A DNA stretch of 45,702 nucleotides, from the IMG/VR virus record IMGVR_UViG_3300020202_000025, positions 1 through 45,702 of that record; one strand, given 5' to 3'. The notes under the pieces are model-generated. The model saw nothing but the letters and a program-made list of their open reading frames with translations. It had not been told where the DNA came from and made no database searches. Each line of letters opens with the position of its first letter. Positions within the stretch are counted from its first letter, which is position 1. The position numbers were made by a program, and so were the translations under genes. The DNA comes from a virus. Shown piece after piece: positions 38,450 to 42,438 of the stretch.

Positions 38450-38802
38450 CGCTCAGCATTCCACACGATGCGCATCGGAAAGACCGTGACGGAGGGGATG
38501 GGCCGGGGACTGCCCGTTATCCCCGCCACGATCTTTCCGATGCGCATGGTGCTCAGCAACTTGTCAGCAATCAGAAGCCAATCCCGCTTCTGCATCTTGT
38601 TGATCTTCCCGACTACCCGATCCGCATTGCCAACCTCCCTAAGCGGGTTGGAGGACTTGGCGAGGCCGTAACTGGCCTTGCCCTTTTCCATTCTCATCGC
38701 GCTCACGCCCCTCACGTTGAGCGCGGGCCGATACGCCGCTGTAGCTTCGATGCCAGCAAGCGTGTCGGCCTCAATCATAGGAGGGTTGAGCTGTGAGACC
38801 AT
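38377..38802 (-). CDS. Minus-strand gene opposing the early-right operon
   Basis: It encodes 141 residues. The ATG at 38802 has GGGGAG 5 bases upstream. Third codon positions are visibly richer in G/C than in the plus-strand frame over the same DNA, as in this phage's certain genes. The protein has amphipathic helices (VVGKINKMQKRDWLLIADKLL) and a Pro/Thr-rich tail. It covers the 80-nt palindrome at 38468. Its promoter is not clear. No family is recognised. It could act as an antisense brake on the operon. Confidence 0.5.
   Translation of the reverse strand: MVSQLNPPMIEADTLAGIEATAAYRPALNVRGVSAMRMEKGKASYGLAKSSNPLREVGNADRVVGKINKMQKRDWLLIADKLLSTMRIGKIVAGITGSPRPIPSVTVFPMRIVWNAERHRTPQANANAMMTPAPKIPMTAQ
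38446..38796 (+). CDS. Competing plus-strand reading frame (low support)
   Basis: A 116-codon frame starts in an ATGA overlap with the membrane microprotein and ends in a GTGA overlap with the HNH gene, which fits the operon style. Against it, the product is unusually rich in His, Arg and Pro, third positions are A/T-rich for this phage, and the opposite strand looks more coding. Only one of the two is likely translated. Confidence 0.3.
   Translation: MTLSIPHDAHRKDRDGGDGPGTARYPRHDLSDAHGAQQLVSNQKPIPLLHLVDLPDYPIRIANLPKRVGGLGEAVTGLALFHSHRAHAPHVERGPIRRCSFDASKRVGLNHRRVEL
38468..38547. repeat. Nested palindrome with perfect 16-bp outer arms
   Basis: The arms 38468-38483 and 38532-38547 are exact inverse copies. 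Inside them CGTG/CACG (38485-38488 with 38527-38530), GGGGAT/ATCCCC (38494-38499 with 38519-38524) and GGGC/GCCC (38500-38503 with 38512-38515) pair in order, leaving an 8-nt loop. About 30 of 80 bases pair on each folded strand. It could be a structured RNA, cruciform replication element or operator-like site. Confidence 0.85.
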
Positions 38803-39275
38803 TACCGCTCCCCCCCGGCCTTGCCGAAGTGTTCGCCTACAACCCTGAGACTGGCGCGATAACGTACAAGGTCGATCACAACGGCCATGTTGCCGGGAGC
38901 GCTGCGGGGCGCCTCAACAACTTCGGATACGTGTTGCTGCCGTTTAAAGGCAAGTCGTATGTCGCTCACCGCGTCGCCTGGCTTCTGCACACCGGCGAGG
39001 ATGCGCATCTGCTCGTTGATCACATCAACGGCACGAAGACCGACAACAGGTTTTCCAATCTCCGTCTCGCGGACAAGAGCCAAAACGGGTGCAACCGTCG
39101 CGGAACCAGTCAGTGGGGGAAGGGGGTCAGCAAATCCGGCTGCAAGTTCAAGGCGTCCATCAAGATAGATGGCCGCACTATCTACCTCGGGCGCTTCCCA
39201 GAGGTCGTTCAGGCGCGCGACGCTTTCCGAGCTGCCGCCATCAAATACCACGGCGAATTCGCGAGGTTCGAATGA
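38793..39275 (+). CDS. HNH endonuclease with AP2 DNA-binding domain
   Basis: The 160-residue protein starts at GTG with AGGAGG 8 bases upstream. Residues 45-95 form an HNH_3 domain (YVAHRVAWLLHTG, then VDHINGTKTDNRFSNLRL). Residues about 108-158 form an AP2 domain (GVSKSGCKFKASI, TIYLGRFPEVVQARDAF). This fusion is typical of free-standing phage homing nucleases. It may be mobile independent of the phage. Confidence 0.85.
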   Translation: MRPLPLPPGLAEVFAYNPETGAITYKVDHNGHVAGSAAGRLNNFGYVLLPFKGKSYVAHRVAWLLHTGEDAHLLVDHINGTKTDNRFSNLRLADKSQNGCNRRGTSQWGKGVSKSGCKFKASIKIDGRTIYLGRFPEVVQARDAFRAAAIKYHGEFARFE

Positions 39276-40063: not shown

Positions 40064-40921
40064 GTGGGGAAGCTGCGCGTGCTCGATCTTTTCAGCGGCA
40101 TCGGCGGGTTCAGCCTGGGGCTGGAACGCACGGGCGGATTTGAGACGGTCGCGTTTTGCGAGATCGAGGAATTCCCCCGCCGCGTGTTGGCGAAGCACTG
40201 GCCCCAGGTGAGGCAATACGATGATGTCAGAACTCTCACCGCCGAGCGATTGGCGGCAGATGGAATTGCCGTCGATGCCATCTGCGGAGGCTTCCCCTGC
40301 CAAGACATATCGCACGCAGGCGCTGGCGCTGGTATTGGCGGGGCCAGGTCCGGGCTCTGGGCTCAATATGCCAGACTCATTGGCGAGTTACGACCCGGCG
40401 TCGTCATCGTGGAGAACGTCGCAGCTCTCCTTGGTCGAGGGCTTGACCGTGTTCTCGGAGACTTGGCCGCGCTCAGGTATGACGCGGAGTGGCATTGCAT
40501 ACCCGCTGCCGCCATTGGCGCCCCTCACATTCGGGACCGGGTTTGGGTCGTCGCCCACCCACAGCGTCCCGACGCCGACAGCGTCAGATCATATCGAGCG
40601 CAAATGCACCTCGTCGGAAGCGCTGAACTTCGAGACGAACAAGTCAGTGAGCCTGGATCGTTGGGTGAGGCGTTGGCCCACCCCGACAGCGCGAGACTGG
40701 AAGGACGGTCGCAGCATCGGGAGCGCTCCAAAGAACGGCCTGCTGGGGAGGGTAGTAGATCCGTCCCCGGAAGATGGATCGCTGAACCCAACGTGGGTCG
40801 AGTGGCTAATGGGGTTCCCAATAGGGTGGACAGACTTAAGGCCCTCGGAAACGCGGTAGTTCCCCAGATACCCGAAATAATCGGTCGCGCCATCCTCGAA
40901 AGCATGAGGCAGGCAGCATGA
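40064..40921 (+). CDS. dcm: C5 cytosine-specific DNA methyltransferase
   Basis: The 285-residue enzyme transfers methyl from S-adenosylmethionine to cytosine C5. Motif I DLFSGIGGF is at 8-16, motif IV GGFPCQ with nucleophile Cys79, motif VI ENV at 117-119, motif VIII IRDRVWVVA near 157 and motif X LKALGNAVVPQ near 258. The target-recognition region (170-250) is short and polar. It starts at GTG 1 base after the previous stop. Likely it protects phage DNA from restriction. A 212-codon frame lies wholly within it. Confidence 0.92.
   Translation: MGKLRVLDLFSGIGGFSLGLERTGGFETVAFCEIEEFPRRVLAKHWPQVRQYDDVRTLTAERLAADGIAVDAICGGFPCQDISHAGAGAGIGGARSGLWAQYARLIGELRPGVVIVENVAALLGRGLDRVLGDLAALRYDAEWHCIPAAAIGAPHIRDRVWVVAHPQRPDADSVRSYRAQMHLVGSAELRDEQVSEPGSLGEALAHPDSARLEGRSQHRERSKERPAGEGSRSVPGRWIAEPNVGRVANGVPNRVDRLKALGNAVVPQIPEIIGRAILESMRQAA
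40221..40859 (+). CDS. ORF overprinted inside the methyltransferase gene
   Basis: It would encode 212 residues in the +1 frame, wholly inside the methyltransferase gene. GAGG lies 7 bases before ATGATG. The product contains WRTSQLSLVEGLTVFSETW, SGMTRSG, two PTPTAxD boxes and LNPTWVEWLMGFPIGWTDL. From memory these match separately deposited phage proteins annotated beside or over phage cytosine methyltransferases. That makes a meaningless shadow less likely, though conservation could be forced by the enzyme frame. The motif WLMGFP also occurs near methyltransferase C-termini. Function is unknown. Confidence 0.45.
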   Translation: MMSELSPPSDWRQMELPSMPSAEASPAKTYRTQALALVLAGPGPGSGLNMPDSLASYDPASSSWRTSQLSLVEGLTVFSETWPRSGMTRSGIAYPLPPLAPLTFGTGFGSSPTHSVPTPTASDHIERKCTSSEALNFETNKSVSLDRWVRRWPTPTARDWKDGRSIGSAPKNGLLGRVVDPSPEDGSLNPTWVEWLMGFPIGWTDLRPSETR

Positions 40922-41142
40922 CCAAGCGCGCGTGTCACTTCCACGATGGCTGTGTCTGGCCCGACGAATACGGCGGTCAGCACTGCACTTGCAGGCGGCT
41001 CAACTTTGGGGAGTTCGGCAAGGGCGCGGCATGGCTTCAACAGCCTGCCAGTCGCACCGAGAAAGCATGGGGGTTGGTGCTTATGGCCTGGACCCCCTTG
41101 TTGGTGGTTATCGGGGCCGTGATTTGGGGGGCGTTGGCATGA
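40918..41142 (+). CDS. Cys/His-rich protein with C-terminal membrane span
   Basis: The 74-residue protein starts in an ATGA overlap with the methyltransferase. Residues 6-26 contain CHFHDGC and HCTC, a possible zinc knuckle. Residues about 50-72 form one hydrophobic span. A zinc finger tethered to the membrane is unusual for so small a protein. No family is recognised. Confidence 0.6.
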   Translation: MTKRACHFHDGCVWPDEYGGQHCTCRRLNFGEFGKGAAWLQQPASRTEKAWGLVLMAWTPLLVVIGAVIWGALA

Positions 41143-41483
41143 CCAAGGGCATCGTCCTGCCGTTTCCGGTTTCAACGCATCAGGCGTTCCGCAAGCACAA
41201 CGGGCGCTATCTCTCGGCCAAATATCGCGCATGGAGGGATGAAGCGGGCTGGATGGTGAAACACCAGCGGCCAGCGGCTTGTCATGGCCCTGTGTCGACC
41301 CTCATCGAATTGAAAGCCCCCGATAGGCGGCTCCGCGATGGGGACAATTACAAAAAAGGCCCGATCGATCTCTTGGTCGCTCACGGCATCATCGAGGCCG
41401 ACAACAATCGGATCGTGAAGCAATCAACGGTTCGCTGGGTCGATGCCGGCGAGCCATGCACCGTCTTTGTAATGCCATCTTAG
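41139..41483 (+). CDS. rusA: RusA-like Holliday junction resolvase
   Basis: It encodes 114 residues. FPVSTHQAFRKHNGRYLSAKYRAW at the start and RRLRDGDNYKKGPIDLLVAHGIIEADN near 66-92, with the catalytic aspartates, are the RusA pattern. It cuts four-way junctions made by the Erf/Exo pathway before packaging. ATGA overlap to the previous gene. Confidence 0.87.
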   Translation: MTKGIVLPFPVSTHQAFRKHNGRYLSAKYRAWRDEAGWMVKHQRPAACHGPVSTLIELKAPDRRLRDGDNYKKGPIDLLVAHGIIEADNNRIVKQSTVRWVDAGEPCTVFVMPS

Positions 41484-41503
41484 TTCTAGTTCAGGGGGAC
41501 CAT

Positions 41504-42109
41504 ATGACGCGTAACCTTCCCACCTCGATCAGCCGATCAGCATGGCCCCCAGAGCGGGTGGCTTTACTCACTCAGCTTTGGGACCAGGGCAAGAGCGCCG
41601 GGCAGATTGCGATGGCCATGAATGACGGGCTGACGCGAATGGCAGTGCTCGGCAAGGTTCATCGCCTTGGGCTTCCGGGGCGCCGGCAGGGCCAGCAGCC
41701 GAAGCGGGATAAGGTGCAACGTGCACCAAGGGCCAAGAAGGAAAAGCACGGTCGCTCCAACAAGTACGGCCAGTCCCCCTTTTACAAGCAGGGGCAGTCC
41801 GAAGCCGAGGCCAAGGTTCTCATCATGGCGGCGCGGGAGCGCGCCCAACAGTTCATGGAAGCGAAGCCGGTGTTGGCTCCCAATTCCAATCCCACGTCCT
41901 TGCTCGATATAGAGCCCCACCAGTGCCGGTTCCCGCTTTGGGCGGGGGATGCCCCCAGGGGCAGCGCCAAGCTGTTCTGCGGGGCTCCTGTTGGCGAGGG
42001 CGCATGGTGTGAGTTCCACCGGCCGGTCATCTACCGCGACGTCAACGGCATGGAAGTCCGCGACGAGAAAGCGGCGATCAAGATCTCGAATGTGGAGCTT
42101 GCCGCGTGA
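41504..42109 (+). CDS. gcrA: GcrA family cell-cycle regulator
   Basis: The 201-residue protein has the GcrA N-terminal DNA-binding domain at about 13-60 (WPPERVALLTQLWDQGKSAGQIA, then VLGKVHRLGLPGR). A basic linker follows, then the C-terminal Cys-rich sigma70-contacting domain (CRFPLW, LFCGAPV, WCEFHRP). In Caulobacter GcrA binds methylated promoters with RNA polymerase. I chose ATG 41504; a longer start at 41456 would reach over rusA. The phage copy may redirect host transcription. Confidence 0.88.
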   Translation: MTRNLPTSISRSAWPPERVALLTQLWDQGKSAGQIAMAMNDGLTRMAVLGKVHRLGLPGRRQGQQPKRDKVQRAPRAKKEKHGRSNKYGQSPFYKQGQSEAEAKVLIMAARERAQQFMEAKPVLAPNSNPTSLLDIEPHQCRFPLWAGDAPRGSAKLFCGAPVGEGAWCEFHRPVIYRDVNGMEVRDEKAAIKISNVELAA

Positions 42110-42438
42110 GCTTGGAAAACCACACTTCCATCTGGGAAATGGACGAAGACGAGCGGCGCATCGCCATAGCCAAATTTGCGTCCAGCAGAGCCGCCAAACA
42201 GCGCCGGATAAACAACCCGCACACGTTCAATGTTCCATCGCCCCGCGTCCTGCCAGAGAAGGGCAACGCCGATGAACTGCACTGGACTGACAAGGCAACA
42301 GCGGAGGTGCTTCGCTTCCGCGCAGAGGGGCACAGCTTCGCTGAGATCGGCATGGCGATGGGATGCTCCAGGAGCGCTGTGCATGGGCTGGTGACACGGC
42401 TGAAGCGCAAGAAGGCCGCACTGGATGTGGCTGCATGA
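42106..42438 (+). CDS. GcrA-like HTH protein
   Basis: It encodes 110 residues from a GTGA overlap with gcrA. Residues 58-100 (LHWTDKATAEVLRFRAEGHSF, then AIGMAMGCSRSAVHGLV-type recognition helix) resemble the GcrA/sigma-like HTH, but the Cys-rich domain is absent. It may modulate the GcrA above or act on phage promoters. Confidence 0.7.
   Translation: MSLENHTSIWEMDEDERRIAIAKFASSRAAKQRRINNPHTFNVPSPRVLPEKGNADELHWTDKATAEVLRFRAEGHSFAEIGMAMGCSRSAVHGLVTRLKRKKAALDVAA

Follow-up and report, generated by a model that had tools for sequence, protein, structure and literature searches.

A cytosine methyltransferase gene of a phage with an overprinted +1 frame that probably encodes the second chain of the enzyme

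The single-chain C5-cytosine methyltransferases M.HhaI and M.HaeIII carry their conserved motifs in a canonical order within one polypeptide. In M.EcoHK31I, by comparison, the small chain is encoded in another frame inside the gene for the large chain. The motif-level account of this enzyme (YGGCCR; Lee et al. 1995, cited in PMC3404938) assigns motifs I–VIII and X to the large chain and motif IX to the small chain, and the recognition domain is predicted there to reside in the large subunit. M.AquI, as summarized in the same source, is divided into a catalytic half and a recognition/motif IX half on two chains.

The locus considered here sits in a 45.7-kb virus record (the window, 45,702 nt, is the whole stretch of DNA that was analysed), and its canonical motif order, which M.HhaI and M.HaeIII keep in one chain, is cut between two reading frames. 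Compared by motif description with M.EcoHK31I as presented in that source, the split in the window is identical, with motifs I–VIII and X in the large chain and motif IX in the small one; the recognition domain, by contrast, appears to lie in the small, overprinted chain rather than in the large chain as predicted for M.EcoHK31I. The present family also differs from that enzyme in being mostly phage-borne and in having a frame division that moves. Motifs IX and X of M.AquI, as described, are together on the second chain, an arrangement shared by phages Samy and Anthony (see below), whereas motif X stays in the large chain in the window.

Throughout, alpha denotes the outer-frame dcm product and beta the product of the inner +1 frame. 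A preliminary description of this DNA had reported a 212-codon +1 ORF inside dcm at 40221–40859, and this ORF is present as described. The features referred to in the text are the following.

40064..40921, + strand: alpha chain, C5-cytosine methyltransferase ORF (dcm), 285 aa, GTG start, motifs I–VIII and X
40221..40859, + strand: inner ORF, putative beta chain, 212 aa, +1 relative to dcm and fully nested in the dcm ORF
40260..40277, + strand: alternative candidate beta starts M14 (40260) and M19 (40275), from GAT enrichment at the matching alpha Asp codons
40286..40303, + strand: alpha motif IV GGFPCQ with the catalytic Cys, from the sequence and invariant in the alignment
40404..40517, + strand: beta N-terminal segment SSWRTSQLSL..ETWPRSGM..AYPLPP, overprinted on alpha motifs V–VIII
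40412..40420, + strand: alpha motif VI ENV, from the sequence
40566..40673, + strand: beta recognition-type unit 1 (VPTPTASDHIERK...SVSLDRWVRR), from alignment and unit clustering
40574..40783, + strand: alpha linker opposite the beta units, open and hardly constrained as protein
40674..40781, + strand: beta recognition-type unit 2 (WPTPTARDWKDG...), from alignment and unit clustering
40782..40829, + strand: beta motif IX LNPTWVEWLMGFPIGW, aligned with motif IX of single-chain relatives (hhalign 96.9%)
40835..40867, + strand: alpha motif X LKALGNAVVPQ, from the sequence, with GNAVVPQ conserved

With respect to motif content, alpha is a clear but incomplete match to the methyltransferase family. 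It carries motifs I, IV (PCQ), VI (ENV), VIII and X, and the PF00145 match (E 4.7e-39) covers residues 5–172 only. TIGR00675 also matches alpha, and the Pfam, NCBIfam, PADLOC and PDB matches span residues 3 to about 165–180, with the PDB matches covering M.HhaI residues 12–170. In motif order and fold, alpha is thus like M.HhaI and M.HaeIII. Between the end of the profile matches and motif X, the outer frame contains no motif IX, and the target-recognition domain and motif IX that a PF00145 enzyme would hold in one chain with the catalytic motifs are absent from alpha. The outer frame had previously been credited with all of the C5-methyltransferase motifs; this is incorrect, as motif IX and the probable target-recognition region are located in the inner frame, and their absence from the outer frame explains the overlap.

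The inner frame of this one gene, taken alone, is suggestive but not decisive evidence of a second protein. The +1 open run of dcm is 215 codons, against a mean of 106 in 20,000 trials in which the dcm codons were shuffled among their synonyms, and a run this long arose in 0.3% of them (p 0.003). In GC-rich genes the +1 frame is open above chance, and dcm is overlapped by nearly all matches to the inner protein, both of which fit the view that the inner frame is forced open, and made to look conserved, by GC-rich codon usage and by conserved dcm codons, the latter an alternative raised in the preliminary description. Since the one-gene permutation was suggestive only, the inner frame was tested across relatives. 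One set of 80 viral loci was collected with the inner protein as query, and a second set of 80 loci was collected independently with dcm residues 1–99 only, which precede the conserved stretch of the overlap; each set comprises the best 80 of at least 600 candidates. Of the second set, 71 loci were scorable over a span that opens five codons ahead of motif VI and closes eight codons short of motif X. The +1 frame was without a stop in 68 of these 71 loci, versus 6.2 expected from permuting dcm codons among synonyms, and the +2 frame was open in none of them. Stops accumulating in the inner frame among dcm relatives, which would have spoken for an artefact, were therefore not what we observed. 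In the reverse test, in which inner codons were redrawn among synonyms, frame 0 was open over the recognition region in 71/71 loci against 8.3 expected. The +1 frame is also kept open in the AT-rich loci L183 and L202 (42% GC), which argues against an artefact.

Substitution patterns point in the same direction. Synonymous sites of dcm, where the preliminary description had proposed looking for excess constraint, are indeed strongly constrained in the overlap. Specifically, dcm third-position diversity in 74 loci selected with the inner protein (a selection that biases these values, and part of the 69 pairs below, to inner conservation, and of which the outer-picked set is free) is 0.64 before the overlap, 0.59–0.60 over codons 53–100, 0.37 over codons 101–140 (motifs V–VII) and 0.32 over codons 236–265, which cover motif IX, with about 0.1 at codons 241–252; past the inner stop it is back to 0.67. 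Among 69 independent pairs, substitution rates over motifs V–VIII were 0.96 where a change was silent in both frames, 0.31 where it was silent in the outer frame only, 0.17 where it was silent in the inner frame only and 0.11 where it was silent in neither. The corresponding rates over motif IX were 0.97, 0.19, 0.36 and 0.16, and upstream of the overlap the inner frame had no effect on the rates. Changes that are synonymous in dcm but alter the inner protein are thus suppressed. From the substitution classes and the open-frame tests together, both frames are therefore selected as protein in the DNA that they share, as is required of an overprinted pair, and the inner ORF very probably encodes a real, selected protein.

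The identity of this protein is suggested by its C-terminal half. Its end is LNPTWVEWLMGFPIGWTDL, in which M197, G198 and P200 are invariant in a 57-sequence alignment, and a variant of this sequence occurs in almost every outer-selected relative (the set drawn from the best 80 of at least 600). On the basis of these alignments, we identify it as motif IX. In sequence and order, motifs IX and X are like those of M.HhaI and M.HaeIII. With hhalign, inner residues 107–206 aligned at 96.9% (E 1.9e-10) with the C-termini of single-chain relatives from Streptomyces, and a control comparison of the inner alignment with the N-termini of the single-chain relatives gave 0.2%. The actinobacterial single-frame relatives contain the same PTPxAxD units together with LSPAFAEWLMGLPTGW, matching motif IX of beta, and PF00145 covers one such relative, L102, through position 316 of 324. 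HMMER places LSPAF..LMGLP..GNGVV of the single-chain Streptomyces relative L100 onto M.HhaI 272–309 (RKLHPRECARVMGYPDSY...FGNSVV), with a low score, and an AlphaFold2 model of L100 superimposes on M.HhaI with a TM of 0.57–0.60 over its length, the linker and unit region being disordered. The inner ORF also matches PHROG 1008 ('DNA methyltransferase', 329 positions; E 2.9e-27), a label that says nothing of its members being overprinted second chains.

The inner protein yielded no match in Pfam or NCBIfam, a PDB profile search with its alignment returned chance kelch-repeat matches only, and the AlphaFold2 model of beta by itself, made with 52 homologues, was of low confidence (pLDDT 55.6). The lack of a Pfam or NCBIfam match, as well as an N-terminal segment that is without a known counterpart in the methyltransferase fold, would suit a protein with a role of its own, in regulation or anti-restriction, that happens to share its DNA with dcm. 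We consider such a protein very unlikely, given that the C-terminal half of beta holds the very motif IX that the alpha frame lacks and that in Streptomyces this half forms a single chain with alpha.

Ahead of motif IX, the probable target-recognition region of beta is made up of units of about 30–40 residues that open with (W/L)PTPxAxD. Among the matches listed, most proteins have 1–3 units and some have up to 5. Closely similar dcm genes carry different recognition units, so that pairing loci by dcm similarity gave saturated rates in this region, and pairs were hence picked by DNA identity. In these pairs the inner protein was more identical than the outer in 36 cases and less identical in 3, from which the recognition region is placed in beta; when pairs were picked by outer similarity, the inner protein was still the more identical in 7/7. 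The rate for changes silent in the inner frame (and altering the outer) was 0.44, versus 0.205 for changes silent in the outer frame (and altering the inner). Opposite the units, alpha is an open linker with little protein constraint. Unit types recur in differing positions and beside differing neighbours across loci, and certain types that phages carry in +1 are found in frame 0 in Streptomyces (for example, LPTPTARDWKSGASNLHGRNSRPLNEVV in Samy and LPTPAARDWKSGASNLLGRNARPLNEVV in L102). The PTPxAxD units are thus candidates for exchangeable recognition modules.

Conservation of this region as the inner and not the outer protein runs counter to the artefact explanation, as does the occurrence of homologous units and motif IX in the dcm frame of Streptomyces. 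With TPT units and motifs IX and X in their dcm frame, these relatives show that beta is not a by-product of dcm codons, and in light of the open frames and synonymous constraint described above we regard an artefact as extremely unlikely. The evidence supports the other alternative contemplated at the outset, namely that the overprinted protein is real and linked to the methyltransferase.

The N-terminal part of beta is a further shared element. Purifying selection acts on both frames over this segment, which has no counterpart that we could identify in M.HhaI, and SSWRTSQ–WPRSGM lies in +1 over motifs V–VIII in every architecture seen, Streptomyces included. We expect that this segment docks beta on alpha. 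The conserved core of beta begins near residue 47, and residues 1–46 are under weak constraint. The proposed start of the inner ORF held up in part: the ATGATG with GAGG 7 nt upstream exists in the sequence, but it is not conserved among relatives in a test of GAT codons. GAT codons, where they give rise to an ATG in +1, are over-represented at inner M14 (p 0.003) and M19 (p 1e-4) but not at 40221. Because the enrichment falls at these positions and is absent at ATGATG, the true start of beta is uncertain, M14 and M19 appearing to be better conserved in the family than the ATGATG at 40221.

Across relatives, the DNA order of the parts is constant and the point of frame division shifts (examples are the Streptomyces loci L102, L107 and L118, and phages Samy and Anthony). 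In the window and in most phages among the matches listed, alpha holds motifs I–VIII and X, and beta consists of the N-terminal segment, the units and motif IX. In phages Samy (L005) and Anthony (L008), alpha ends soon after motif VIII and beta continues in +1 through motifs IX and X; the second ORF begins inside the first and extends 640–810 nt past alpha. In Streptomyces and other actinobacteria, motifs I–VIII, the units, IX and X are all in frame 0, and the +1 frame holds only the SSWRTSQ–WPRSGM segment and the first unit. Substitution rates agree with this last arrangement, from smaller counts (11 pairs). In the open-licence papers searched, such an overlap is not described for the dcm genes of phages. 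To that extent, what is new is a frame overlap that occurs widely in phages and also in actinobacteria, with the recognition region as variable PTPxAxD units in the overlapped frame, and the fact that related loci divide one ordered set of parts between two chains at differing points.

Annotators keep alpha, beta or both, at times with a late beta start. In the Streptomyces phage Samy (L005 2001–3116), the annotated beta start is at 2370, yet an open, conserved frame runs from 2001 inside alpha, and the annotated product probably lacks the N-terminal segment.

The DNA order of the parts is the canonical single-chain order and the frame of each part varies among relatives, as might be seen if ribosomes shifted from frame 0 to +1 and back to make one fused chain in place of two separately initiated ones. 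The +1 frame is nonetheless under protein-level selection over motifs V–VIII, where frame 0 is essential too, and so both frames are made from the same DNA. Moreover, the frame-0 linker is open through to motif X (71/71), which would be needless had ribosomes left that frame. We therefore judge programmed frameshifting to be unlikely, although a minor frameshift product may be made.

The preliminary description had also counted it against the idea if hits occurred only as overlaps, and this is largely the case: essentially every member among the matches listed overlaps dcm in +1, and no standalone inner member was found among 80 + 56 viral loci (matches listed) or in the actinobacterial loci. 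L267, an alphaproteobacterial fragment (about 1090–1330), contains a motif IX-like LNPEFVCWLMGFPKEW and one unit, with no dcm detectable in any frame; it is probably a remnant, or else the only non-overlapping member seen. A more distant inner protein (for example, GSTLYKRTWKLRDTPSGRQICALRASALRISGNGSG) overlaps dcm-like sequence in the alphaproteobacterial genomes L264, L266, L268 and L269.

The location of motif IX and the recognition region in the inner frame argues for reading the two ORFs as subunits of one enzyme, and we put the probability that one C5-cytosine methyltransferase is built from alpha and beta as its two chains at about 0.87, with translation, assembly and activity predicted from sequence. 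Alpha would bind AdoMet and contribute the catalytic Cys with motifs I–VIII and X. Beta, from its own start in +1, would bring the target-recognition region and motif IX, and in this way supply most of the small DNA-recognising domain. The two would assemble into a putative heterodimer of the HhaI/HaeIII type, with the units presumably setting sequence specificity, and the overlap would hold the halves together and keep them co-expressed. Protection against host restriction is an established role of phage methyltransferases, and the enzyme of the window probably shields the phage's own DNA in this manner. A broader proposal, to which we assign roughly even odds, is that the DNA order (I–VIII; SSWRTSQ–WPRSGM; PTPxAxD units; IX; X) is fixed across a large family of C5 methyltransferases from phages and actinobacteria, that indels can move the frame division because the parts assemble without a covalent link, and that the units are exchangeable, such that specificity may evolve by shuffling in the overprinted frame.

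If the two-chain reading is correct, many complete-looking phage dcm genes encode half an enzyme only, the DNA-recognising half being in a frame that annotation drops or mislabels, and cloning or specificity prediction from the annotated ORF alone would fail. The family would also offer a large and testable collection of gene pairs that overlap on the same strand and jointly encode one enzyme, as well as a natural series that illustrates the division of an enzyme between chains at differing points. As naturally split C5 methyltransferases are already in use to target DNA methylation (PMC3439449), new pairs with varied recognition units would be practically useful.

In terms of genomic surroundings, an HNH_3 endonuclease (PF13392) is encoded upstream of the pair at 38793–39275 and a RusA-type resolvase (PF05866) downstream at 40932–41483. 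A GcrA-like regulator (PF07750, E 1e-23) lies at 41456–42109, just downstream of the methyltransferase pair, and is followed by a second, weak GcrA/HTH-like ORF at 42106–42438; a phage-borne GcrA suggests an alphaproteobacterial host.
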